DNA from: Mailhella sp. | GTDB taxonomy: Bacteria > Desulfobacterota > Desulfovibrionia > Desulfovibrionales > Desulfovibrionaceae | DNA: 11,459 nucleotides | Direction of reading: 5' to 3' | NCBI GenBank assembly: GCA_017522745.1 | Contig: JAFWYI010000028.1 | Coordinates: forward strand, 1 to 11,459 | Part shown: piece by piece, positions 2 through 11,459 of the stretch | Position numbering within the stretch: the stretch's first letter is position 1 | Layout: each line of letters starts with the position of its first letter | Translations under genes and position numbers: made by a program | Notes under the pieces: generated by a model | What the model was told of the DNA's origin: nothing | Database searches by the model: none | Seen by the model: the letters and a program-made list of their open reading frames with translations, nothing else

Positions 2-310
2 GTGTCCAGCGTAAAGAAAAGGATAAGTTTCAAGGCTGTGCTTGTCGCGGCTATGCTGTCAGGCTGTTTTTTCTGGCATGGCTCGGCCTCCGCTTCTGAA
101 AACGAACGCTACAAAGCTATTCCTGCCAGTCCCGGCGGCCCTATCCTCATCATTGATACGAAGGAAGGCCACCTCTGGACGTGGAATAATAACGGCGTCG
201 AAGAAACGGATGCGGCTGGCGTTAATCCTCGTATTCGATATCAGGGGAATGTTCGAAAGAATATGAATCCGCCAAAGAGGCCGACACCTACGTTATCTTC
301 GCCACGGTAG
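2..310 (+). CDS. Small putative lipoprotein of unknown function
   Basis: This is a 102-residue protein if it starts at the GTG at position 2. The true start may lie upstream, because the window begins one base earlier and no ribosome binding site can be seen. The N-terminus has a basic stretch (KKR), a hydrophobic core and a lipobox L-S-G-C with the cysteine at residue 22, so signal peptidase II processing and membrane anchoring are likely. A type I cleavage after SASA is an alternative. The mature part holds a short segment of beta character (PILIIDTKEGHLWTW) and ends in a proline-, lysine- and arginine-rich tail. I do not recognise the family. It is separated from the next gene by about 210 AT-rich bases, so it is probably not in the same transcript, although it shares with the downstream small proteins a short secreted body and a basic tail. 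Confidence 0.6.
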   Translation: MSSVKKRISFKAVLVAAMLSGCFFWHGSASASENERYKAIPASPGGPILIIDTKEGHLWTWNNNGVEETDAAGVNPRIRYQGNVRKNMNPPKRPTPTLSSPR

Positions 311-523: not shown

Positions 524-838
524 ATGAAGAAGCTCAGCTTCGCTCTTGCTCTCGCTGTGGCCCTTATCGCTGGTCAGGCTCATGCCGCCAAGAAAATTGA
601 AATGACTGCCCCCAATAACACCAACAAAAGCACCATGACCAATACGATCAACGAAACCACGGTTAAGGATTCTACCATCGTTACCGCTGGCAAAAACGCT
701 GAGACCAACATCGGTGTCATTGACAACAAGGGTGGTACCATGACCAATACCGTCAATGAAACCACTGTCAAGAATTCCACTGTTGTTACCGCTGGTGAAG
801 GCGCTAAGACCAATATCGGTCGCATCTCGAATCAGTAA
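524..838 (+). CDS. Small secreted two-repeat protein, candidate curli-like amyloid or export substrate
   Basis: This is a 104-residue protein. The ATG at 524 is chosen over the in-frame TTG at 512 because GGAG at 514-517 is correctly spaced for it, and it begins a clean Sec signal peptide (MKKLSFALALA... QAHA, cleavage after residue 21). The mature 83 residues are almost only two tandem repeats of 35 and 33 residues (37-71 and 72-104). Each runs T-M-T-N-T-[IV]-N-E-T-T-V-K-x-S-T-[IV]-V-T-A-G, then A-x-T-N-I-G. The alternating Thr/Asn/Val pattern suggests stacked beta strands, as in amyloid subunits or beta-solenoids. The curlin signature with Gln-x-Gly and Asn at fixed steps is absent, so it is not a recognisable CsgA. 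It is the first gene of a run that includes a CsgG-like pore, which is the main reason to think it is exported. A hairpin directly downstream would let it be made in excess over later genes. Confidence 0.75.
   Translation: MKKLSFALALAVALIAGQAHAAKKIEMTAPNNTNKSTMTNTINETTVKDSTIVTAGKNAETNIGVIDNKGGTMTNTVNETTVKNSTVVTAGEGAKTNIGRISNQ
632..835 (+). repeat. In-gene tandem repeat, period 105 bp
   Basis: Two copies, 632-736 and 737-835 (the second lacks the last two codons). They are similar at the DNA level as well as in protein; for example ACCATGACCAATAC starts both. Differences are mostly at third codon positions (ATC/GTC, ACG/ACT, AAC/AAT), which points to an old in-frame duplication kept under protein-level selection. 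The repeat unit is the 35-residue Thr/Asn/Val-rich block of the encoded protein. Confidence 0.85.
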
Positions 839-845
839 GCATTTC

Positions 846-886
846 ATAAAGGAGGAAGAGCATCCTATGCTTTTCCTCCTTTATTT
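846..886 (+). terminator. Strong hairpin after the first operon gene: terminator or attenuator
   Basis: A perfect 12-bp inverted repeat, ATAAAGGAGGAA at 846-857 and TTCCTCCTTTAT at 873-884, has a 15-base spacer and ends in a short T-rich run (TTTATTT, 880-886). It lies 8 bases after the stop of the small repeat protein and 17 bases before the next start. The tail is not a pure T run, so partial termination is more likely than complete. It can also act as a 3' stabilising hairpin. Its left arm contains a perfect Shine-Dalgarno (AGGAGG), which the stem would mask. Confidence 0.75.
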
Positions 887-902
887 ACAATGCGAGGTGG
901 AT

Positions 903-1193
903 ATGCGTTATCGATTATTTGCCTTTCTGGAAATTCTTATTTTAGGCATAGCCCCTTGCAGAGGTCTTGCTATCGATACAGACAAGTCAGATAAAACTCA
1001 AATCATCATTGATGGTAAGCCTCTTGGTCAGTGGATAGAGGAGCAAAAGAGCACCGGACGCGTTATAACCGGAGATGAAGCTTCTCGTATTGGTGTCATA
1101 GAAAATGATGGCAGAGAGCTTGTGAATGTCAAACGGCGTACTGTCATTCAGGATTCCATTGTAATCCCCAATCCAAAGAAGAAAAAAGACTGA
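903..1193 (+). CDS. Small secreted protein with one copy of the shared beta module
   Basis: This is a 96-residue protein starting at ATG 903, preceded by GAGGTGG. An in-frame ATG at 867 would add 12 residues and lies behind the AGGAGG in the hairpin arm, but the 903 start gives the better Sec signal peptide (MRYRLFAFLEILILG... RGLA, cleavage near residue 23). Residues 63-88 align without gaps to residues 63-88 of the upstream repeat protein with 10 identities in 26 (I-G-V-I-[DE]-N ... T ... S-x-V), so one repeat-like unit is present. A second short piece, G-Q-W-I-E-E (42-47) followed by K-S-T-G, resembles G-A-W-A-E-D in the next gene product. The protein ends in a basic PNPKKKKD tail. No known family is recognised. 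It could be a minor subunit, nucleator or chaperone-like partner of the first protein; this is inferred from context only. Confidence 0.7.
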   Translation: MRYRLFAFLEILILGIAPCRGLAIDTDKSDKTQIIIDGKPLGQWIEEQKSTGRVITGDEASRIGVIENDGRELVNVKRRTVIQDSIVIPNPKKKKD

Positions 1194-1250
1194 GCTCGGC
1201 TCGGAATATTCTTTGGTATAGCTTTCACTCATAACAGTTTGGAACTAGCA

Positions 1251-1592
1251 ATGAAACGCATCATTTTTTTGACCACTGCACTATGTTTTATTTTTCAGAG
1301 CAATTTTTCATATGCCGATGATGATCCCTATGCCGCTGCCATGAACGAACATAATAGCATTCGATCGCAAAAGGCCGATGCTCACGCAACAAAAGTTTAT
1401 GGAGCTTGGGCAGAAGATATGGCCAATCAAATCAAGTCGGGCAAGAAGGAGGGGCTGGTCTATGACGGAGAAAATGGCATAGGCAATGTTACCATTGAAC
1501 GAGGCTCAAAGGTAACTGGACCTATAATTGTCAATCCTAAAATTGATAACTCAACCGTCATTTTTACTTCTCCAAAAAAATCGCGCTTCTAG
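1251..1592 (+). CDS. Small secreted protein, third member of the shared-module set
   Basis: This is a 113-residue protein from ATG 1251. The in-frame TTG at 1239 is rejected because the ATG begins a standard signal peptide (MKRIIFLTTALCFIF... SYA, cleavage near residue 22). The ribosome binding site is weak (TTTGGAA). The mature protein has a charged, probably helical first half (about 25-65, with Y-G-A-W-A-E-D at 50-56) and a beta-type second half. Residues 77-104 run I-G-N-V-x-I-E-R-G ... D-N-S-T-V-I and align with the module of the two upstream proteins if a two-residue gap is allowed. The tail is basic (SPKKSRF). The gene sits 57 bases after the previous one and 23 before the CsgG-like gene, so cotranscription is likely. 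Function is unknown; the context suggests an exported subunit or accessory factor. Confidence 0.7.
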   Translation: MKRIIFLTTALCFIFQSNFSYADDDPYAAAMNEHNSIRSQKADAHATKVYGAWAEDMANQIKSGKKEGLVYDGENGIGNVTIERGSKVTGPIIVNPKIDNSTVIFTSPKKSRF

Positions 1593-1615
1593 GTTGACCA
1601 ATTAGGGGGTATTTC

Positions 1616-2872
1616 ATGCGTATATCTACAATATTGCTCCTGCTGGGGCTTTGCGCTGGTGGTCTTTCAGGATGTATTAATGCTGAAGCTCCAGTTCTTC
1701 CTTCAATGGAGGTTTCTAAGCCCAGTCAGTCGATATATACTTCTGCATTGCAGGAATTAGATACTATATTACAGTGTTATTATCCCCCAGACACCAGTGT
1801 AGTATATTATTATGTAAAGCCTATTAATGATGCTACCGGCCTTTCAGGGACAGGTGAAATTCCAGGAAGCATCACTACAATGGTGCGTGATGCCATCTCT
1901 CAGATTTCGTACAAAGTACGTTATGTTGAGCAGTATGATGCTTCCGACTTCAATCATCTTCAGGTTGAACAGCTGTTGAGACAGGCATCCAAAATTCAGA
2001 CTCAGACCCCCATGGCTCTACGTCCAACTGCCGATTACACCATTACCGGTGCCATCTCCATGTTCGACCGCAATCTCAGTTCTTCTTCCGATGAAATGAG
2101 AGGTATGGCGGCTATAGGTGGAGGCAGCAGTCAAGCTCAGATCGACGGTTTTGCCAAAAACAGCACTAGTTTTTCTAGGCTAGGAGTTTCATTTAATCTC
2201 TTTTTGAGCAACGGTGTTTCCATTCCCGGAAAGTTCGGTGGAGAAATAAACGTAATGTTGGCCAAAAACTCCAAGGACTTAGGCTTTTCCATTAAAGGGG
2301 TTGGCTTCGGTATTGGCTCTGAAGCAGTTGCTATGCATGGACGTCATCAAGCCCTAAAAATGCTTACGGAATTCAGTGTGGTACAGATTGTTGGCAACAC
2401 TATGAGTGTACCATATTGGAGAGTTGGCAATCAGCATAGAATCTTTTCAGAAGATCCCCATGTTATAAGGGCTATGAGAAGTGAATTTGAAGACTATAAA
2501 ACTGATCCCCCACGTCTTATTGCCTATATGCAGGCTCAGTGTATCGCTAACGGCGATAAAAATATAAGTGTTAACGGCGTGTTGGATGATGCTACACAAA
2601 GAGCCTTTGAGAAGTTTGGCGAGCAGTACAATGTTCCTGCCGGAATTAATTTCTCCATGTTCAAGGCGTTGGAACTCAATAGAATTCTTGATGTGAATAT
2701 CGCTTCCGAAGCCTGGTCTGCCTATGCGGCTTACAAGAATGGTATTGTGACTCCCCCTGTAGACCCCGTTCGTGTTCCTTCCCCAAAAACTTCTGTTAAG
2801 GCTTCTCCCAAACCCACCGCACCTGCTCCGTCCAGCCCCGACTACGACAGCGCCCTCGAAGGGCTTCTCTAG
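1616..2872 (+). CDS. CsgG-family outer-membrane lipoprotein with C-terminal peptidoglycan-binding-like segment
   Basis: This is a 418-residue protein with a good ribosome binding site (AGGGGG) 7 bases before the ATG. A lipobox L-S-G-C places the lipidated cysteine at residue 20, and Ile at +2 favours outer-membrane sorting. Residues about 60-270 resemble CsgG, the curli secretion pore: I-N-D-A-T-G near residue 70 matches the CsgG I-x-D-x-T-G strand, Y-T-I-T-G-A-I near 142 matches the V-E-G-S-I strand, and a helix (HQALKMLTEFSVVQIVG) precedes the end of the domain. CsgG forms a nonameric outer-membrane channel for unfolded subunits. Unlike CsgG of about 260-280 residues, this one continues with a segment (about 305-360) containing V-N-G-V-L-D-D-A-T-Q-R-A-F-E-K-F, which looks like a PG_binding_1 fold. 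It then ends in a Pro/Ser/Lys-rich tail. The pore role is inferred and depends on the CsgG match holding in a profile search. Confidence 0.7.
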   Translation: MRISTILLLLGLCAGGLSGCINAEAPVLPSMEVSKPSQSIYTSALQELDTILQCYYPPDTSVVYYYVKPINDATGLSGTGEIPGSITTMVRDAISQISYKVRYVEQYDASDFNHLQVEQLLRQASKIQTQTPMALRPTADYTITGAISMFDRNLSSSSDEMRGMAAIGGGSSQAQIDGFAKNSTSFSRLGVSFNLFLSNGVSIPGKFGGEINVMLAKNSKDLGFSIKGVGFGIGSEAVAMHGRHQALKMLTEFSVVQIVGNTMSVPYWRVGNQHRIFSEDPHVIRAMRSEFEDYKTDPPRLIAYMQAQCIANGDKNISVNGVLDDATQRAFEKFGEQYNVPAGINFSMFKALELNRILDVNIASEAWSAYAAYKNGIVTPPVDPVRVPSPKTSVKASPKPTAPAPSSPDYDSALEGLL

Positions 2873-2913
2873 TCGTTTCGGCATTCAGTCGCCACTGCTC
2901 ATTCTGGTGAAGT

Positions 2914-4884
2914 ATGAAACATATCCCCGCCATTCTCTGTTCTCTGGCTCTGCTTTTCGGCGCAAGCGAGTATGCCTCTGCCCGTGAACCTCTTCTTGTT
3001 CCCGGCAAGACAACGCTCTACCAGCGCGTTATAAGCCACCCCGGAACGGTGTCGTATAAAAGTCCGAACGCGGAAATCACGGGTGTTGTGGATTCGTTCA
3101 CGCCGCTCTATGTGTACGACAAGAAGGTCGTCAACGGCGAAGAATGGCTGGAAGTGTCTCCTTCTTCCGGAGCCTCCTCGACTCAGTGGATCCGCAGTCT
3201 GAACGGTTCCCGCTGGGACAAGGCGCTTTCCCTTACGTTCACGGAAAGAATGGGGCGCGATCCCGTCATGTTTTTCCGTTCCTACGACAGTTTGAACCAG
3301 CTCATCACCTCGGAAAAGCTCAGTGACGAACTGACCAGACTCGTCCGGGAGTATCGGCACGATACCCTTGACGCGTCGTCCCCTCTCATCGCCCTTGAAC
3401 CCAAGGCTTCGGCGGTTCCCCGTGAGCAGTTCTATCTGATGCCCATATTCGACCATTCCCTTGAATATGAGCAGTATGGTCTCAAAATGCTCAAGGTGGG
3501 CTGTATCAATCCGGGCTCTGGAGAAGTCGCCCCTAAGACGGTTGCCGTCCCTGAACCTCGCAAGTTCAAATCCGGCGTGGCCTTCGTCATCGATACGACG
3601 ATATCCATGAAGCCCTACATTGAGAAGACGAAGGAGTTCATTCACAACACCTATAATGCTCTTGAGAAGAGCCCCCTGGCCGAAGACTTGTCTCTTGGTG
3701 TCGTGGCCTATCGAAACAGCACTCGGCATGACCAGAACATCGAGTATGTCTCCCGTGTCGTTTCTCCTCTGACTCCGGTCTCCGGCAGGCAGGTCATGGA
3801 ACGTGGCTTGAATGATTTGGACGAGGCTAAAGTTTCCACCCACACTTTCAATGAGGATGCTTTTGCCGGTATCATGTCGGCTATCGAACGGCTCGACTGG
3901 AATCCTTACGCGGTCAAGCTTGCAGTCCTCATCACCGATGCCGGTGCCATTCGCAACGACGACAAGTATTCTTCTACTGGTCTGAACGAAGAGGAAATGC
4001 GCGACCTGCTGGCCCAGAAGGGGATACGCCTTCTGGTCGTCCACCTGCAGACGGAAGCTGGAAAGCGGCACGGCTTGACGAAAACGGAAAAGCAGTACCG
4101 TACTCTCACCAGTGTAAAGGATGCCAACCTTAAGAGTGTGTACCTCCCTCTTCCAGCCTATAGTGCCCAGACTGCCAGTCAGCAATTTGGCAAGCTCTCC
4201 AAGGCTATGGTCAACATCCTTCTCAAGATCATGAAGCAGAATGCCGAAGGGCAGATGACCCAGAAGCCTGAGGCTGTGGCGGCTGCGACTCCAGAAGAGA
4301 AAATGGCTCAAATAGCTCAGTGCATCGGCTATGCCGCTCAGCTTGAATTCGTGGGCAGTGAAAAGAATACTCAGGCTCCCAGAATGCTCGAAGCCTGGGC
4401 CGTCGATAAGGACCTGGTCAGTCTTTCCGAAGGCAAACCTACGGAAGCGCTCTCTGTGACCGTTCTGCTTAACAAGCGTCAGCTCGACAGTCTGGCTTAT
4501 CAGCTTCAGACCGTTGTCGATGCGGCAAAGAGTGCTCGTGATATCGACAGCAGTCAGCTGTTCCAGCGCATAGTTTCTCTTTCCGCGCAGACCGTGCGTG
4601 ACCCGAACAAGCTTCAGGAAGGCGGTTCTGCGGCCAATATCGCGGAACTTGGGGTTCTGCCGGAGTTCCTCGAAGGGCTTCCCTATGTAAGTTGGATTAT
4701 GGGCATGACCGCTGAAGGTTGGAGCGCCATGAGCTCCATGGAGCAGGATGCGAAGATCCGTGAACTGGAGTCTAAGATTCAGCTCTACAAGGAATACCAT
4801 AACGACACCGCCAACTGGAAGAGCTTCGGAAGCCCAGATCCTGCCGACGCCATGTATAGGGTTCCTTTGACTTCGCTGCCGTAA
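2914..4884 (+). CDS. Periplasmic SH3-like plus vWA protein, like the periplasmic half of PpkA
   Basis: This is a 656-residue protein. Its signal peptide (MKHIPAILCSLALLFG... ASA) is cleaved near residue 23, so it is periplasmic without an anchor. Residues about 30-105 look like an SH3-type domain (E-E-W-L-E-V, Q-W-I-R). A von Willebrand A domain spans about 218-420, with a MIDAS of D227-x-T229-x-S231 (F-V-I-D-T-T-I-S-M), a third loop near D315 and D342 in L-I-T-D-A-G, so metal-dependent binding is plausible. The C-terminal third is helical and ends with G-L-P-Y-V-S-W-I-M-G-M-T, an L-E-S-K-I-Q-L-Y-K-E-Y-H segment and V-P-L-T-S-L-P. From memory these resemble the vWA-containing C-terminus of T6SS kinase PpkA. 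No kinase domain is present. The gene lies 41 bases after the CsgG-like gene and 3 bases before the ABC gene. A sensor or scaffold role with the FGE-domain protein is inferred. Confidence 0.75.
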   Translation: MKHIPAILCSLALLFGASEYASAREPLLVPGKTTLYQRVISHPGTVSYKSPNAEITGVVDSFTPLYVYDKKVVNGEEWLEVSPSSGASSTQWIRSLNGSRWDKALSLTFTERMGRDPVMFFRSYDSLNQLITSEKLSDELTRLVREYRHDTLDASSPLIALEPKASAVPREQFYLMPIFDHSLEYEQYGLKMLKVGCINPGSGEVAPKTVAVPEPRKFKSGVAFVIDTTISMKPYIEKTKEFIHNTYNALEKSPLAEDLSLGVVAYRNSTRHDQNIEYVSRVVSPLTPVSGRQVMERGLNDLDEAKVSTHTFNEDAFAGIMSAIERLDWNPYAVKLAVLITDAGAIRNDDKYSSTGLNEEEMRDLLAQKGIRLLVVHLQTEAGKRHGLTKTEKQYRTLTSVKDANLKSVYLPLPAYSAQTASQQFGKLSKAMVNILLKIMKQNAEGQMTQKPEAVAAATPEEKMAQIAQCIGYAAQLEFVGSEKNTQAPRMLEAWAVDKDLVSLSEGKPTEALSVTVLLNKRQLDSLAYQLQTVVDAAKSARDIDSSQLFQRIVSLSAQTVRDPNKLQEGGSAANIAELGVLPEFLEGLPYVSWIMGMTAEGWSAMSSMEQDAKIRELESKIQLYKEYHNDTANWKSFGSPDPADAMYRVPLTSLP

Positions 4885-4887
4885 GCC

Positions 4888-6894
4888 ATGTTCCCGGTTC
4901 TGGAGATAGAAGGTCTCAGCAAGACCTATCGGAGTTCCGATTCTGTGTTCTGCCTGAAGGCTGACGCCTTGAGCGTCGGCCTTGGGCAGACGTGGGGGAT
5001 TATTGGCCCCAGCGGATGCGGAAAAAGTACCTTGCTGGAAATGCTGGCTCTTCTTTCCAGACCTGACGAAGTCTCCCGCTTTTCGCTCCATGACGCTTCC
5101 AGAGACGTCATTTCCATTGATGATCTGTGGCGAAAGAACGAGCATGACAGGCTTGCCGCCCTGCGAAGGAATAATTTCGGCTTTGTCCATCAGGCTGGCA
5201 ATCTCTTTCCCTTCCTCTCAGTTCGAGAGAACATCCTCATGCCGTATCGCCTGCGGTTCGGCGCAGGAGGCGAACCGCGCTTGCATGAGCTGGCCGACAT
5301 GCTCGGTATCACGCGTCTCCTCGACCATAAGCCCGAACAGCTTTCCTATGGCGAACGTCAGAGAGCCGCCATCGCTCGCGCCCTGATCCATTCTCCTCGA
5401 CTGGTACTCGCCGACGAACCAACGTCTGCCCTTGACCCGGAAACGGCTCGTCAGGTCATGTCTCTCTTTAAGAAGTGCGTGGAGCATACCGATACCGCAC
5501 TGCTTCTTGTCAGCCACGATCACGCACTGCTGAAAGATTCCTCTGTTCCCACTTTGGAAGTTCGCCGAGAGGATGCAGGTCTGGACGCGTCTAGCAATGG
5601 CACTTGCTGGACGCTCACCCCTTCTTCTCGGGGCGATAAGGAGGAGTCTCCAGTGGAGTGTGCAGTTTCAAAGCCGTCCCGTACCAGCTCGTCCAGAGGG
5701 CTTTCTCTGTTTATGGCGTGGAAGGATTTTCTCCACGAGCATCTTCTTTCGTTCTGTGGAGTCCTTGCTTTTGCCGCTGCCCTCACCCCCATCCTTCTGC
5801 TGGCTGGATTACGTTTCGGCATTGTAGATACCCTTTCTCAGCGGCTTCTGAACTCTCCTGCCACGTTGTCCATCACGCCGTATGGCAGTGTTCGTTTTAC
5901 TCAGGAACGTCTTACAGAGCTGGCCTCTCACCCCAGCGTCTCCTTCCTCGTTGCCCGGACAAGAACGCTGGCCGCCAGCGTGAACTTGGCAGGAGCAGAA
6001 GAGAAAAGGCTTTCTGCCGATCTTGTCCCCACAGCTGAAGGCGATCCGCTTCTGGGTTATGCTGATATTACCTTTTCGGAAAAGGGCGTTGTCATTACCC
6101 GACAGCTTGAAAGAAGTCTTTCCGCTGTAGAAGGGGAGCGTTCCCTTGAGCTGTTCGTCAGCCGTATGCATGGCGGACGTTTGGAAAGAGTCTCTGTCTC
6201 TGTCCCCGTCTTAGGCGTCCTGCCTGATTCGGCAGACTGGAAATCTCACATTTATGCGCCGCTCAGTTTTACCGAGGCTGTGGAACGCTATCGTGACGGC
6301 TTTTCGGTTCCTGAATTTGGATGGACTGGCAAAGAAGGTTCTCCCGAAAGGACGTATGCTGGGTTCCGCATGTATGTAAAAAGTCTGGATGACGTTGTGG
6401 TCATGCGGGATTTTCTCATGCGCGAAGGCATCGAGTCCTATACCTCTGCTCGTGAGGTTGAAAATATACAGGCTCTGAAGCGTACCCTTTCCTTTGTGAC
6501 CATACTTATCGGAGGCGTCACCATCGTCGGCATGATGATGTCACTTGCCAGCTTTGCAGTCTCTAATGTGAACCGCAAGGAGCATTTTTTTGCCCAGGCC
6601 CGCCTGATGGGCTTTTCCGGATACTCGCTCCTGCTGTTTCCTGTCGGGCAAATGATTCTTTGTGCAATATGCGCCTCTTCGTTATCGCTTCTCTTTTATG
6701 GCGGTGCGGCCGTCATTTTTGATGTCGTATGCGCATCGTATCTCCAGCATGGGGAGTCGATATGCCGTATTCCGGCCATCTACACAGCGATGCTTTATTC
6801 TGGCGCACTTATTCTTTCCCTCATATGCTGTGTCGGTGCGGGTAGAAAACTGCTCCGTCTTCAGCCTGCGGAGGTTCTTCGCCGTCATGTCTAG
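4888..6894 (+). CDS. Fused ABC transporter ATPase-permease, MacB/LolCDE type (TagT-TagS-like)
   Basis: This is a 668-residue protein with the ATPase first. Residues 1-225 hold Walker A G-P-S-G-C-G-K-S-T (40-48), Q-loop Q102, signature L-S-Y-G-E (152-156), Walker B L-V-L-A-D-E-P (172-178), D-loop S-A-L-D (180-183) and switch His210. After a polar linker (225-275) comes an FtsX/MacB-type permease: TM1 about 285-310, a large periplasmic domain 311-530, then three TM segments near 535-560, 580-612 and 630-652, ending in L-Q-P-A-E-V-L-R. Members of this class use ATP to move lipoproteins or to drive periplasmic conformational changes rather than to move small solutes. In the T6SS phosphorylation pathway the ATPase (TagT) and permease (TagS) are separate; here they are one chain. 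A lipoprotein-sorting or efflux role is the alternative. It starts 3 bases after the vWA gene and its stop overlaps the next start, so translation is probably coupled. Confidence 0.88.
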   Translation: MFPVLEIEGLSKTYRSSDSVFCLKADALSVGLGQTWGIIGPSGCGKSTLLEMLALLSRPDEVSRFSLHDASRDVISIDDLWRKNEHDRLAALRRNNFGFVHQAGNLFPFLSVRENILMPYRLRFGAGGEPRLHELADMLGITRLLDHKPEQLSYGERQRAAIARALIHSPRLVLADEPTSALDPETARQVMSLFKKCVEHTDTALLLVSHDHALLKDSSVPTLEVRREDAGLDASSNGTCWTLTPSSRGDKEESPVECAVSKPSRTSSSRGLSLFMAWKDFLHEHLLSFCGVLAFAAALTPILLLAGLRFGIVDTLSQRLLNSPATLSITPYGSVRFTQERLTELASHPSVSFLVARTRTLAASVNLAGAEEKRLSADLVPTAEGDPLLGYADITFSEKGVVITRQLERSLSAVEGERSLELFVSRMHGGRLERVSVSVPVLGVLPDSADWKSHIYAPLSFTEAVERYRDGFSVPEFGWTGKEGSPERTYAGFRMYVKSLDDVVVMRDFLMREGIESYTSAREVENIQALKRTLSFVTILIGGVTIVGMMMSLASFAVSNVNRKEHFFAQARLMGFSGYSLLLFPVGQMILCAICASSLSLLFYGGAAVIFDVVCASYLQHGESICRIPAIYTAMLYSGALILSLICCVGAGRKLLRLQPAEVLRRHV

Positions 6895-8623
6895 ACTCAT
6901 TCTTATTTTATGCGCTGCCCTCATGTGGGCTTCACCAGTGGAGGCCGCAATAAAGTTCAAGCCTAAAAGTGCGATGCTGAATGCCGCTCAGGTTTCCGAA
7001 CCCCATCCCGCCCAGGGGGATGTTATTCTTCCCATGCCGGGTGGACTGGGAATGACGCTGCGCCCAGTGTGCATTCCTGGCTCAGGATATCTTGATGCCA
7101 CGGATATCCAGCAAGGTGTCCAGCTCTCATCTTCTGCGGGGGCAGCGACGGATGGCAACGGGGATAGGGGGCAGTATGCAGAGCAGAGGCACACGCTGTC
7201 TATCAGCGCTCCTTTTGAGCCGGAAAACATCCCATCTGCCTGGGGAAAAGGCATCGTTGAATTCCTTCAATCCGACAAGGTGTATTCGGAAGCTCGCAAT
7301 TCGGGCATTACCCCCTATGTCTACTTTATAGGCAAATACGAAATTTCTAGGGCGCAATGGCGAGCTGTAATGGAGCCGTCAGCAGAGGGAGCTCCCTTCA
7401 AGTTTGAAGCAGACGACTATCTGCCCATGACGAAAATATCTTGGTTCGATGTTCTTGAGTTTACCCGCCGTTACTCTGAGTGGCTGATGCAGAACCATCC
7501 AGAGGCATTGCCGTATTTTGCTCAGGAACAGCGTTCATCCTTCATTCGCCTCCCGTCTGAGGCCGAATGGGAATTCGCGGCTCGTGGCGGGCATAAAGTA
7601 AGCATTGCTGAACGCAGCCAGACATCACTTCATCCCATTCCTGAGGGAGAAGATTACCGGGAGTATATCACAGCGCAGCTATACGATTCATCCCTGCATG
7701 GGCTTTCTCCTATCGGTGCAAGAAAGCCCAATCCCCTTGGTCTTTACGATATGCTTGGCAACTGTTCGGAAATGATTCTTTCTCCTTTCCGACTTGTAGC
7801 AGGAGGCAGGCAGATAGGAAGCTACGGCGGCTTTGTCATGAAGGGCGGAAGCTGGCGTTCAACCACACAGGAAGAACTTCACCCAGGGCATAGAGTGGAG
7901 GCCGCCTATTATGTGGACGGAAAGGCTCAAGTCCGTGACGATATGGGATTCCGAATCGTTTTGGGCAGTATTCTTACCCCAAAGGAACGCCGGGACAGCC
8001 TTTTTGAAGAATGGAAAAACAGAACTGCCCCCAAGGCTGCCCAAGCCACCGAAAAAGACGACGTGCGTACCGTTATTCGCCACATCACCACTTTTGTGGA
8101 AGATCCCGCATTAAAGCAGAGACTCGCACAGGCTGAGGCAACGGCTTCGCTCTACCACGAAAAGGTCAATGAGAGTGAAGAACGTATGATACGTGAGACT
8201 CTTGTGGGAGCGTTATTCTCGCTTGAAACCATCGCTAATTACGGCTCTCGTGGGTATCAGCTTGCAAGTCTTTTGGAGGCCTACGGAAACCTCGCCCGAA
8301 AAGATTCATCTGAACATAATGCGGAAAAAGAAAAAATGGAAAAGGATATCCGAGGATTCATGGAAGGCATCCAAAGCGCACTGTTTTATTACTTGGCGAT
8401 GGTAAAAGAATGCAGTCGATTTGAGCAATCTCGAATCATGCCGCAGCTCAAAAAAGTATCCCTGCAATTCGCTCACGATGATGGATTCAGCAGAAGTATG
8501 ACACGTCGCGTCCGGGTTCTTGAAAAGCATCTGAGCGCCGATGTACAAGTGTTGGATGAAAAGAGTGCCCTGCGCGACATTCTTCCTGACTGGCTTTTGA
8601 AAAAACTAAATACCTATTGGTAG
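6887..8623 (+). CDS. Periplasmic FGE/SUMF1-domain protein, TagR-like, probably non-catalytic
   Basis: The ATG at 6887 overlaps the ABC gene's end by 8 bases and has GGAGG upstream at 6870-6874. The open frame extends 75 codons further upstream inside the ABC gene, but only this start gives a signal peptide (MSRLILILCAALMW... VEA, cleaved after residue 20). The product has 578 residues. Residues about 140-360 form a formylglycine-generating-enzyme-like domain: Y-F-I-G-K-Y-E-I-S-R-A-Q-W, R-L-P-S-E-A-E-W-E-F-A-A-R-G-G, L-Y-D-M-L-G-N-C-S-E-M, M-K-G-G-S-W and D-D-M-G-F-R. The active-site cysteine pair expected between G-G-S-W and G-F-R is missing, so sulfatase activation is unlikely and a binding role fits better. 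A C-terminal helical part (about 360-578) is extra. TagR with this domain acts on PpkA in the periplasm; here the vWA protein two genes upstream is the natural partner. Confidence 0.8.
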   Translation: MSRLILILCAALMWASPVEAAIKFKPKSAMLNAAQVSEPHPAQGDVILPMPGGLGMTLRPVCIPGSGYLDATDIQQGVQLSSSAGAATDGNGDRGQYAEQRHTLSISAPFEPENIPSAWGKGIVEFLQSDKVYSEARNSGITPYVYFIGKYEISRAQWRAVMEPSAEGAPFKFEADDYLPMTKISWFDVLEFTRRYSEWLMQNHPEALPYFAQEQRSSFIRLPSEAEWEFAARGGHKVSIAERSQTSLHPIPEGEDYREYITAQLYDSSLHGLSPIGARKPNPLGLYDMLGNCSEMILSPFRLVAGGRQIGSYGGFVMKGGSWRSTTQEELHPGHRVEAAYYVDGKAQVRDDMGFRIVLGSILTPKERRDSLFEEWKNRTAPKAAQATEKDDVRTVIRHITTFVEDPALKQRLAQAEATASLYHEKVNESEERMIRETLVGALFSLETIANYGSRGYQLASLLEAYGNLARKDSSEHNAEKEKMEKDIRGFMEGIQSALFYYLAMVKECSRFEQSRIMPQLKKVSLQFAHDDGFSRSMTRRVRVLEKHLSADVQVLDEKSALRDILPDWLLKKLNTYW

Positions 8624-8632
8624 GAGTGATCT

Positions 8633-9631
8633 ATGTCGTTGTCTAAAGTTTTCTCGCTGATCAGTTTCAATCGATTCATGCTCATTCCTTTTATGATTAT
8701 ATCTCTCATGATGCCAGCGTGTATGCCAACGCCATCTATCATGAAGATGAAACCAGAATATTACCCCCAGTGCTACCAGCCTTTTGAAGACTTGGAGCAG
8801 GCTAAAAGAGATCTCATCAGCCGCACTCTCATTGGTGCCGGTCTGGGTGCTGTTAGTGGTGCCGTTGTGGGAGGAGTTGCTACAGGCAATGTGAAGGGAG
8901 CTGCGATCGGTGCTGGTATTGGTGCGCTTGGTGGTGCCTTGGTAGGCTATGTACATGCAAAAAGATCACAATATAAAAACGATAAGGAGCGTATGCGCAG
9001 TTATCAGGCCGATATGAATGCCGATATGCGCAATGCAAGCCGCGTCGAGCAGTATGCTATGGCAAGTCTGCAATGCTATACGAGAGAATTCAATACGCTT
9101 CTGAAAAAATATAAGAAGGGTGAATTTTCCAAGGAAGAGGTGCAGGCACGCTATAAGGAAATTCGTGAAGGCATGACTTATATTGCTGAAATTTTGAAAG
9201 ACTCGAAAGATAAACTCGTTCAGCGAGATGAAGAGTATCGTGAAGCCTTTGCCTTTGAAGCCAGGACGAAAAATCGCCCTGCTCCAGAAGTAGCCAGTCT
9301 GGAAAAGAAGCGTGAAGCCGCCGCGAAAAGGCGTCCCTCAGCAAATGTAAAGGGCGATGGCAGTCGAGAGCTTCGGAAGGTCAGTGCCGAAGCCAACACT
9401 CGTAAAGTACAGGCTGAGCGCAACGCCCAGAAAGTCGAAAAGCAGGAAGCCGCAATGGTCGCGGCGGCCGAAAAGAAAAAGGGAACTTCAAGTATCAAAA
9501 CCGTTTCCAAGTATTACGAAAAGCAATACCTCAACAGTGTTGTTAGCCTTGAAGAAGCAGAAAACGTAAACGATCGAACGCTGGCGGCCATGAGTGTTGC
9601 AGCCAAGCACGCTGGCATTGATATGGTGTAG
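8633..9631 (+). CDS. Glycine-zipper outer-membrane lipoprotein, TagQ-like
   Basis: This is a 332-residue protein. AGGAG at 8622-8626, overlapping the previous stop, is well placed for the ATG at 8633. A long hydrophobic N-terminus leads to M-P-A-C, with the candidate lipidated cysteine at residue 30; the lipobox is imperfect, and Met at +2 does not signal inner-membrane retention. The mature part opens with C-Y-Q-P-F-E-D-L, then a glycine zipper at about 66-106 (repeated G-x-x-x-G, e.g. G-A-G-L-G-A-V-S-G-A) that could form a hairpin in the membrane. A long charged coiled-coil region (about 110-310), rich in Lys, Glu, Arg and Ala, would reach into the periplasm. In the P. aeruginosa pathway, TagQ is the outer-membrane lipoprotein that holds TagR at the membrane. 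The match here rests on position next to a TagR-like gene and on general build, so it is less certain than for the ABC or FGE proteins. Confidence 0.65.
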   Translation: MSLSKVFSLISFNRFMLIPFMIISLMMPACMPTPSIMKMKPEYYPQCYQPFEDLEQAKRDLISRTLIGAGLGAVSGAVVGGVATGNVKGAAIGAGIGALGGALVGYVHAKRSQYKNDKERMRSYQADMNADMRNASRVEQYAMASLQCYTREFNTLLKKYKKGEFSKEEVQARYKEIREGMTYIAEILKDSKDKLVQRDEEYREAFAFEARTKNRPAPEVASLEKKREAAAKRRPSANVKGDGSRELRKVSAEANTRKVQAERNAQKVEKQEAAMVAAAEKKKGTSSIKTVSKYYEKQYLNSVVSLEEAENVNDRTLAAMSVAAKHAGIDMV

Positions 9632-9731: not shown

Positions 9732-9950
9732 TTATTCTTCTGGCCGTTTTGCCAATCCCAGTACAGTGGCTATCCGTTTGAATACGGTCAATCCCATATC
9801 AACTTTGTCGTTTTCGATGTCGAACATATGGGAATAAGAAATATCGGTTTCGTCAGCCAAATTTCTTTGCGTCATATCTTTGGCCTGACGAGCTTGAATA
9901 ATGGTAGTGCTGGTATTGTTAAGAAGATCATAAAGGTCAAATGATTTCAT
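9732..9950 (-). CDS. Small XRE-family (Cro/C1-type HTH) regulator
   Basis: This is a 72-residue protein on the minus strand. On that strand AAGGAG sits 6 bases before the ATG, a strong ribosome binding site. Residues about 15-66 form a Cro/C1-type helix-turn-helix: I-I-Q-A-R-Q-A-K-D-M-T-Q-R-N-L-A-D-E-T-D-I-S, then H-M-F-D-I-E-N-D-K-V-D-M-G-L-T-V-F-K-R-I-A-T-V-L-G-L, which has the usual helices 2-3 and the final hydrophobic helix. It has almost no other domain, like antitoxin regulators of the HipB kind and small phage repressors. No toxin or second gene follows it: the stop is 100 bases from the convergent operon end. Palindromes just upstream (9975-9990 and 10027-10040) are candidate self-control operators. 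It may regulate the neighbouring operon or be a remnant of a mobile or toxin-antitoxin locus. Confidence 0.8.
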   Translation of the reverse strand: MKSFDLYDLLNNTSTTIIQARQAKDMTQRNLADETDISYSHMFDIENDKVDMGLTVFKRIATVLGLAKRPEE

Positions 9951-10337: not shown

Positions 10338-11459
10338 CTACTTCTTCTCCTTCTTACCATGCGAGGAACGCAGGTGCAGGCGCATGGGGGCGTGCTTGAT
10401 GCCGAAGATGCGGCGCAGGGAGCGTTCGAGGTAACGGGCGTAGGATTCGGCCACGCGGTCGGCGTCGTTCACGAAGCAGACGAAGGTCGGCGGTTCGCTT
10501 TCGGCCTGGGTGAGATAGAAGAACTTCGGACGCACGCGGCGCACCACGGGGGCCTGATGGCGGGTGAGGGTCTCTTCCATGGCGCGGTTGAGCAGGCCGG
10601 TGGAGACGCGGGTACCGCATTCCATGTAGATGCGTTCAGCCAGCGGGATGAGCTTGTCGAGACCTTCGCCGGTGCGGGCGGAGGTGGGCACCACGGGCAC
10701 GTGATAGCAGAAGCTCAGTTCTTCCTGGAAGTTCTTCATCAGCTGGGTGCGGGCCTTCGGGGGGATGAGGTCCATCTTGTTGACGATGATGAGGAAGGGC
10801 GTCTTGCGTTCGTCCAGCAATTCGATGAGGCGCTTATCCTGAGCGGTGAGACCTTCGGTGGCATCGAGCAGCAGGAAGGTGACATCAGCCTTGGTGGTAC
10901 TCTTGAGCGAGGAGTTAACGGAGAAGCGTTCCACGGTGTCCGTGATGCGGGCACGGCGGCGCACACCGGCGGTATCCACGAAGGTGTATTTCTTGCCGTT
11001 CTTCTCCACGGTGACGTCCACGCTGTCGCGGGTAGTGCCGGCCATGTCGCTCACGATCATGCGGTCTTCACCGATGAAAGCGTTGGTCATGGAGGATTTG
11101 CCCGCGTTGGGGCGGCCCAGCATGCAGAGCTTCATGCTGTCGCCGAGCTTGCGGCGGCGCACACCGGGCTTGTCGCGGTCTTCTTCGAGATCGGCGGGAA
11201 GAGCGTCCTCGTTCTCCTCTTCCTCGAACTCATCGGGTTCGGGCAGAAGATCACGCAGTTCACCTTCGAGAGCGCGAAGGTTGAAGCCGTGTTCGGCGGA
11301 GCAGGCAAGCACAGGGAAGCCGAGACCGTGGAATTCGGCCATCATGAGTTCTTCCTTTTCAGCGCCGTCCACCTTGTTCACCACAAGGAGGATAGGCTTG
11401 TCGCATTTGCGGAGATAGGCGGCGAGATGCTCGTCAAAGGGCATGAGCCCATCGCGGCC
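10338..11459 (-). CDS. der: Ribosome-assembly GTPase Der (EngA), N-terminal part outside the window
   Basis: The reading frame is open to the right edge: the codons before the first in-window ATG read G-R-D-G-L-M-P-F-D-E-H-L, so that Met is internal, not the start. Der has two tandem GTPase domains plus a KH-like domain and acts in 50S subunit maturation. Visible here are the end of the first G domain (N-K-V-D, G4), an acidic linker (EPDEFEEEENEDALPADLEE), the whole second G domain (G-R-P-N-A-G-K-S-S Walker A; T-T-R-D switch; D-T-A-G G3; N-K-M-D G4; T-S-A-R G5) and the C-terminal KH-like domain ending in a basic SSHGKKEKK tail. The second Walker A has Ala where Val is more usual. It is noticeably GC-rich (about 63 percent in 10441-10500 by hand count) compared with the operon to its left, which marks it as ordinary core genome next to a likely accessory region. 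Confidence 0.95.
   Translation of the reverse strand, partial: GRDGLMPFDEHLAAYLRKCDKPILLVVNKVDGAEKEELMMAEFHGLGFPVLACSAEHGFNLRALEGELRDLLPEPDEFEEEENEDALPADLEEDRDKPGVRRRKLGDSMKLCMLGRPNAGKSSMTNAFIGEDRMIVSDMAGTTRDSVDVTVEKNGKKYTFVDTAGVRRRARITDTVERFSVNSSLKSTTKADVTFLLLDATEGLTAQDKRLIELLDERKTPFLIIVNKMDLIPPKARTQLMKNFQEELSFCYHVPVVPTSARTGEGLDKLIPLAERIYMECGTRVSTGLLNRAMEETLTRHQAPVVRRVRPKFFYLTQAESEPPTFVCFVNDADRVAESYARYLERSLRRIFGIKHAPMRLHLRSSHGKKEKK

Follow-up and report, generated by a model that had tools for sequence, protein, structure and literature searches.

The window considered here, 11,459 nucleotides of Mailhella sp. DNA that make up the whole of one contig (JAFWYI010000028.1, assembly GCA_017522745.1), carries eight genes of the same direction (524-9631, with intergenic gaps of 3-64 nucleotides and one 8-nucleotide overlap) in which a lipoprotein of the CsgG fold is encoded beside an envelope module of the TagQRST/PpkA type. 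In order, the set comprises three small secreted proteins (s1, s2 and s3), the CsgG-fold lipoprotein, a vWA protein, an ATPase-FtsX fusion, an FGE-domain protein and a TagQ-like lipoprotein. A first-pass annotation had proposed this combination from the letters of the window; the co-occurrence of pore and module is now confirmed as real and conserved, being found in eight of nine close loci, the window included. On balance we lean towards an export system of the curli or Hfa kind in which a trans-envelope module of the Tag type has been recruited to control or energise the pore. The source is a draft genome (G000, contig C47; 1.68 Mb, 84.8% complete), and the vWA protein has its nearest named relative, among the matches listed, in Mailhella sp. 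(98%). Genomes and loci are cited below by our own handles (G and L numbers).

A putative CsgG-type pore gene and its conserved neighbours

The predicted fold of the 1616-2872 product clearly matches CsgG, and its signal-like N-terminus ends, as read from the translation, in the lipobox LSGC; most relatives shown with a full N-terminus have a cysteine at that position. Because a Pfam CsgG search of its own genome returned nothing, the assignment was tested on relatives and on the fold. From 70 CsgG-like proteins found, 48 were aligned, and seven of these match Pfam CsgG at E<=0.1 (best 7.6e-5); one relative (P0039) carries the NCBI name "CsgG/HfaB family protein." The earlier call of a CsgG-family lipoprotein is thus borne out by fold, though the Pfam match of the window protein lies under the cut-off.

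Nine close CsgG loci are available: the window, G059, G081, G086, G087, G120, G205, G221, and the Desulfobulbaceae contig L013. In eight of them, spread over two families, a vWA gene lies 3' of the pore gene (41 nucleotides away in the window, and with one small open reading frame [ORF] between them in L013), the vWA proteins of these adjacent loci having 34-55% identity to that of the window. An ABC gene follows in the window, G081, G087, G120, G205, and G221, each with an FGE gene, which is cut short in G081 and G221. The TagQ-like gene is present in the window, G087, G120, and G205. G086 is the one locus with no vWA gene at the pore; in the others, the sequence breaks off too early, at contig ends in G059 and G081, where the fetched stretch stops in L013, and near the start of the contig in G221. 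Homologous loci in which the module adjoins the pore and the small proteins, the pattern that the first-pass annotation had proposed to look for, do exist.

Among 146 mechanically called ORFs of >=100 amino acids flanking eight loci (G081 left out, the window contributing 1.8 kb only), there was no homologous inter-locus pair at E<=1e-8. Identities among the CsgG-like proteins are correlated with those among the vWA proteins (Mantel r 0.91, a value reached in 3 of 5000 permutations). In an unrooted vWA tree of 28 rows, in which L013 is represented by a fragment (29% of columns), the eight CsgG-linked rows form one group (100/100), with the Srf-linked rows of the family neighbouring. ATPase and permease are fused in the window and in all five other CsgG-linked loci that have the gene, and are separate proteins in every one of the 18 other loci that have both. 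A vWA group and a gene fusion of its own, together with differing flanks, mark the co-occurrence as real and old; a single recruitment of the module, followed by specialisation, fits the tree and the fusion pattern.

In Desulfovibrio sp. ZJ369, an ORF reading like a tyrosine recombinase (L010, 5890-6990) lies 5' of the set; together with the unlike flanks, it hints that the set may be mobile. Two extra ORFs stand near the TagQ-like gene in some loci, unlike the window (L090, 15868-17095; L091, 10672-11862; L010, 17298-18737), and those of L010 matched no NCBIfam family. A scan with query A1 gave six loci in genome contigs and none in viral contigs, while a TagQ-like scan of genome contigs gave 49 stretches that matched a pattern, with no relative among them.

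The small secreted proteins and the hairpin after s1

The two halves of s1 match each other (repeat score 119 in the window, against a shuffle maximum of 51), and the two-repeat structure is far above shuffles in all eight copies from seven genomes, a sample that excludes G081, whose contig starts too late, and a weak match in L013 (6e-4). AlphaFold2 predicts for s1 an open beta-solenoid of two coils, with block pLDDT values of 86-96 over residues 41-104. The s1 motif is shared with s2 (hhalign probability 94%) and s3 (79%), so that the repeat-bearing character first ascribed to the small secreted proteins is upheld by the s1 repeats and by the s1-type motif in the other two. Each of the nine close loci has one or more s3 relatives directly 5' of its pore gene. 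No Pfam family was above cut-off for s1, no Pfam curlin repeat was found in s1-s3 at E<=1, and a PHROGs search of these proteins and of s0, a further small secreted protein encoded 5' of s1, gave no match. FapC amyloid came up against the s1 model at E 3.3, which is not evidence. We infer from the two equal coils, the open ends, and the single-motif partners that s1 is probably the main exported subunit and that s2 and s3 may be caps or starters.

A strong hairpin lies within about 100 nucleotides past the stop codon in all eight s1 genes examined, the sequences being unlike one another. In the window, it has a folding energy of -29.7 kcal/mol (z -6.7); over the eight copies, the mean z is -6.0 and the weakest -2.0. 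By comparison, mean z after s2, s3, CsgG, vWA, ABC, and FGE lies between -0.5 and +0.9, and the values after s0 (-2.4) and TagQ (-2.5) are both driven by some loci. For the first s1 copy of L011, the automatic structure pick differed from the stem seen by eye. A canonical intrinsic terminator after s1 was considered and ruled out, being absent from the terminator scan and having no T run. The hairpin may instead stabilise the 3' end or act as a partial attenuator, so as to allow an excess of s1, as for a structural subunit.

The module proteins

Parts resembling TagQ, TagR, and TagS/T were all recovered, as first supposed, through matches to NF041250, FGE, and ABC_tran. The profile searches suggested at the outset gave uneven results: FGE and ABC_tran came out above cut-off, CsgG below it, and vWA weakly. 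The ABC protein (ABC_tran, 6.6e-26) is of the LolD/FtsE/DevA type, with Walker A, signature, and Walker B motifs that read as intact, and its permease half matches permeases annotated as FtsX-like in a Srf locus. The FGE-domain protein (PF03781, 8.1e-29) has SUMF2 as its closest PDB relative. It reads KGGSWRSTTQEELHPGHR where true FGE carries its cysteine-bearing motif. The TagQ-like lipoprotein reaches 121 bits (5.1e-35) against NF041250, whose equivalog cut-off is 300; judged by this score it is a relative of TagQ and not an equivalog.

The vWA protein gave weak TssR_VWA and VWA_2 matches and no Pkinase domain. Among the 120 of 358 matches listed, relatives are labelled PpkA in JGI records, which agrees with its initial assignment to that family and with the lack of a kinase noted then; the link is drawn from these labels, from PMC3608642, and from general background. 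A PADLOC search of five proteins matched the ABC protein only, which was read as generic ATPase matches, and anti-phage defence was set aside.

The module with other partners

The same module is found without a CsgG-type pore. Of 99 genomes of the family, 22 hold vWA relatives, at 27 places altogether. Among the 20 places whose wider context was fetched, four are CsgG-linked, ten stand beside srfB/srfC, and six have neither in the fetched stretch. ATPase, permease, and FGE genes accompany nine of the ten Srf-linked copies (L052 has no ABC or FGE gene in view), and with five other loci of the family these make up the cases of vWA, ATPase, permease, and FGE in the absence of CsgG. Both kinds of copy, one CsgG-linked and a separate one linked to srfB/srfC, are carried by G087 and G059, as would be expected if each serves its own partner. 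The Srf-linked loci share the module and its order with the window (38-42% vWA identity within the family); they differ in their SrfABC partner, in having the ABC part in two genes, and in mostly lacking a TagQ-like match (2 of 13 loci scanned have one).

Partners other than Srf and CsgG may exist. One locus (L061, G056:C58) has the vWA-ABC-permease-FGE series with a calcineurin-like phosphoesterase upstream, and four more (L062-L065) have it with a weak TagQ-like match after FGE, all with no Srf or CsgG in the fetched stretch; at L055, which also has neither partner, the stretch begins 1.2 kb 5' of the vWA gene and no other part is visible.

Plasmids carry the module as well. Records with a vWA relative number 125, of which 114 are from Klebsiella (H1-H15, H28-H81, H85; about 32% identity); an FGE relative likewise occurs on Klebsiella records. 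Neighbourhoods were examined in six records of non-Klebsiella genera, two of them unannotated. The series SrfABC-vWA-ABC-FtsX-FGE is found in Enterobacter sp. 638, Cereibacter, and Gluconobacter. In Thiodictyon, matches to permease and FGE and weak ones to the TagQ-like protein lie on a plasmid close to T6SS (type VI secretion system) tip genes, and an Azospirillum plasmid (L108) has five parts, vWA-ABC-FtsX-FGE-TagQ-like, with no Srf or CsgG match. On this last plasmid, an upstream ORF (10928-12766, minus strand) beside the vWA gene at 14839 reads like a putative protein kinase. A TagQ-like protein search of plasmids found none.

Type VI secretion, kinase, and curli accessory genes

No T6SS core gene is present in the window, and TssC and TssK were not found in its own genome (84.8% complete). 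Among the other pore-gene genomes, TssC is present in all four that were searched for it (G059, G081, G086, and G087); TssK is present in G205 and was not found in G120 and G221, both listed as 100% complete. The phrase "without T6SS" in the first-pass annotation thus holds next door and in the source genome and fails as a general statement, with a core gene elsewhere in five of eight pore-gene genomes and in four of the seven that also have the module. Stretches of 14-20 kb around T6SS genes in four genomes contained no vWA relative. Pkinase gave no match in G000, G059, G120, and G221 (four of the eight pore-gene genomes), came above cut-off only in G081 and G086, and remained below it in G087 and G205. 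From this distribution of TssC, TssK, and Pkinase, the set seems independent of T6SS and of a PpkA-type kinase; where Pkinase is missing, a PpkA-type phosphorylation output is unlikely, so that a role in energising or gating is as likely as one in sensing.

The curli accessory proteins were sought with an E. coli control that was positive: CsgE was found in 0 of 10 genomes and CsgF in 0 of 8, with G000 84.8% and G081 76% complete. There is no srfB or srfC in the window, and SrfB was not found in G000.

Relation to known systems

With curli, the set shares the CsgG-type fold, the lipobox, and small secreted repeat proteins, with s1 predicted to be an open beta-solenoid; it differs in having no detected CsgE, CsgF, or curlin repeat, and in its helical C-terminal domain and Tag-type module. 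The holdfast anchor HfaABD of Caulobacter is another likeness, drawn by description: in PMC6707917, HfaB, a CsgG-like protein, is required to display the small amyloid-like HfaA and HfaD at the surface, and the passages on it name no vWA-ABC-FGE-TagQ module. With TagQRST-PpkA of the Pseudomonas aeruginosa H1-T6SS, the window shares a TagQ-like lipoprotein, FGE (TagR), ATPase and FtsX-type permease (TagT and TagS), and a vWA protein with PpkA-labelled relatives, the TagR, TagS, and TagT likeness being one of family and domain; it differs in lacking a kinase and an adjoining T6SS, in the fusion of ATPase and permease, and in its CsgG partner.

Campbell et al. 2013 (PMC3608642) report that in host-associated Deltaproteobacteria srfABC is adjoined by tagQ and ppkA, often with tagR, tagS, and tagT, and that only one of these bacteria has T6SS machinery. 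A module of this type without T6SS is therefore not new. No report of a CsgG-type pore with Tag-type genes was found among the literature matches listed, in a search whose coverage left most subscription papers outside; PMC13198692 and PMC5664417, in the passages concerned, have CsgG and Tag or PpkA/SrfABC terms in separate gene lists or loci, unlinked.

How the parts may work together

In the reading we lean towards, s1 would cross the inner membrane via Sec and pass the outer membrane through an oligomeric pore of the CsgG-like lipoprotein, to stack at the surface as a beta-solenoid polymer, curli- or HfaA-like, in which s2 and s3 would be minor subunits or caps. The place of CsgE and CsgF would be taken by the trans-envelope module of the TagQRST/PpkA-periplasmic type, made of a TagQ-like lipoprotein in the outer membrane, FGE and vWA adaptors in the periplasm, and the inner-membrane ATPase-FtsX. 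An ATP cycle, relayed mechanically across the periplasm, could gate the pore or supply it with energy, an envelope cue being the probable trigger; the "sensing arm" of the first-pass annotation is a conjectural reading of the module. A bolder and decidedly tentative version has the ATPase-FtsX protein pushing, via vWA, FGE, and TagQ-like proteins, on the CsgG-type pore, so that the release of a fibre of beta-solenoid type is fired or gated. In that case one portable mechanical module would serve three clients, namely T6SS, SrfABC, and the present system, and would work here with no kinase.

Several observations weigh against coupled export. The window protein scores only 14.2 bits against Pfam CsgG (curated cut-off 20.8), two hairpin parts of its model (155-183 and 218-239) are of low confidence, and CsgG was not recovered when PDB sequences were searched with a profile of the CsgG-like alignment (a chloroplast L23 match in the same search, at E about 0.01, was taken as chance). 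The s1 model found nothing among PDB structures at E<=0.001, and s2 and s3 have no detectable mutual match (hhalign 5%). G086 (96% complete) has s0, s1, s3, and the pore gene with no adjoining module, and no vWA relative was found anywhere in that genome. A CsgG-like match occurs in 17 of 297 genomes of the order, seven close and ten distant, and no vWA relative was seen in the stretches fetched around the ten distant loci (two on short contigs). The range of module carriers is narrow, with four of the eight in one genus (g41) and two in another (g27). By the evidence of G086 and the distant loci, the module is inessential for CsgG-type export as such; the pattern at the distant loci, where a small s3-like gene (L015 type) occurs in seven of ten and s0 in three, suggests a core of pore and small proteins to which the module was added later. 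This distant group (L093-L100, L014, L015; 10 genomes) is possibly another undescribed CsgG-dependent export cassette.

The same absences lend something to the idea that pore cassette and module are neighbouring operons with unrelated tasks, held together by common inheritance or mobility: the pore gene stands alone in G086 and the ten distant loci, the module does without CsgG in nine Srf-linked and five other loci, and the s1 hairpin splits the set. We nevertheless hold this to be improbable in view of adjacency in eight of nine loci at 34-55% vWA identity with unlike flanks, the short pore-to-vWA gap in the window, and the single CsgG-linked vWA group. The module might otherwise be a pure regulator that senses contact or damage, as Pseudomonas TagQRST does, and switches fibre production on with no part in transport. 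In PMC6657622, TagQ and TagR are required for T6SS baseplate assembly and TagS/T only modulate, and the identical parts beside SrfABC suggest a general switch; set against this are the secreted vWA protein, which leaves no output domain visible, the four of eight genomes with no Pkinase, and the finding of no kinase, phosphatase, or FHA match above cut-off in the 10 window proteins scanned. We consider such a regulator unlikely, while giving it real weight. That the CsgG-like protein is a structural outer-membrane ring (LptE/TolB/FlgT-like fold), with s1-s3 as periplasmic or adhesin parts, seems to us quite improbable.

Gene layout of the window

The features are collected in Table 1. Upstream of the eight genes, s0 is probably a ninth member and the first gene of the set, since its relatives recur 5' of the CsgG-like gene (five of eight other close loci, three of ten distant ones). 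Beyond the set lie two ordinary genes on the minus strand, encoding a helix-turn-helix protein of the Cro/HipB type (9732-9950) and the ribosome GTPase Der (10338-11459, truncated by the contig end).

Table 1. Features of the pore and module set in the window
Feature	Position	Strand	Remark
s0, small secreted protein (ERYKAIP...LIIDTKEGHLWTWNN...YQGNVR)	2..310	+	5' end possibly lost at contig end
s1, 104 amino acids, two repeats of ~35 amino acids	524..838	+	Sec signal-like N-terminus by reading
Long hairpin after s1 stop	839..893	+	inner 18-bp stem 846-884
s2, small secreted protein	903..1193	+	single s1-type motif close to C-terminus
s3, small secreted protein	1251..1592	+	s1-type motif at C-terminal side
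CsgG-like lipoprotein	1616..2872	+	CsgG-type core with long hairpins, then helical C-terminal domain
Secreted vWA protein without kinase domain	2914..4884	+	vWA about residues 209-381
ATPase-FtsX-type permease fusion, TagT-TagS-like	4888..6894	+	ABC_tran match
FGE/SUMF-domain protein, TagR-like, without FGE cysteines	6887..8623	+	PF03781 match
Glycine-zipper lipoprotein, TagQ-like	8633..9631	+	NF041250 match below equivalog cut-off

Implications

Curli-type export is regarded as a passive pore aided by CsgE and CsgF. If a CsgG-type pore is indeed wired to an inner-membrane ATPase, this would be a new way of powering or switching such export. The arrangement also suggests that TagQRST-type genes be recast as a general, portable module usable by different secretion machines, and the set, in which no kinase was found, offers a system for studying TagQ, TagR, TagS, and TagT by themselves. 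Goat rumen is the source of at least one carrier, and Mailhella is a gut genus; a surface fibre made by this set could accordingly bear on host association.

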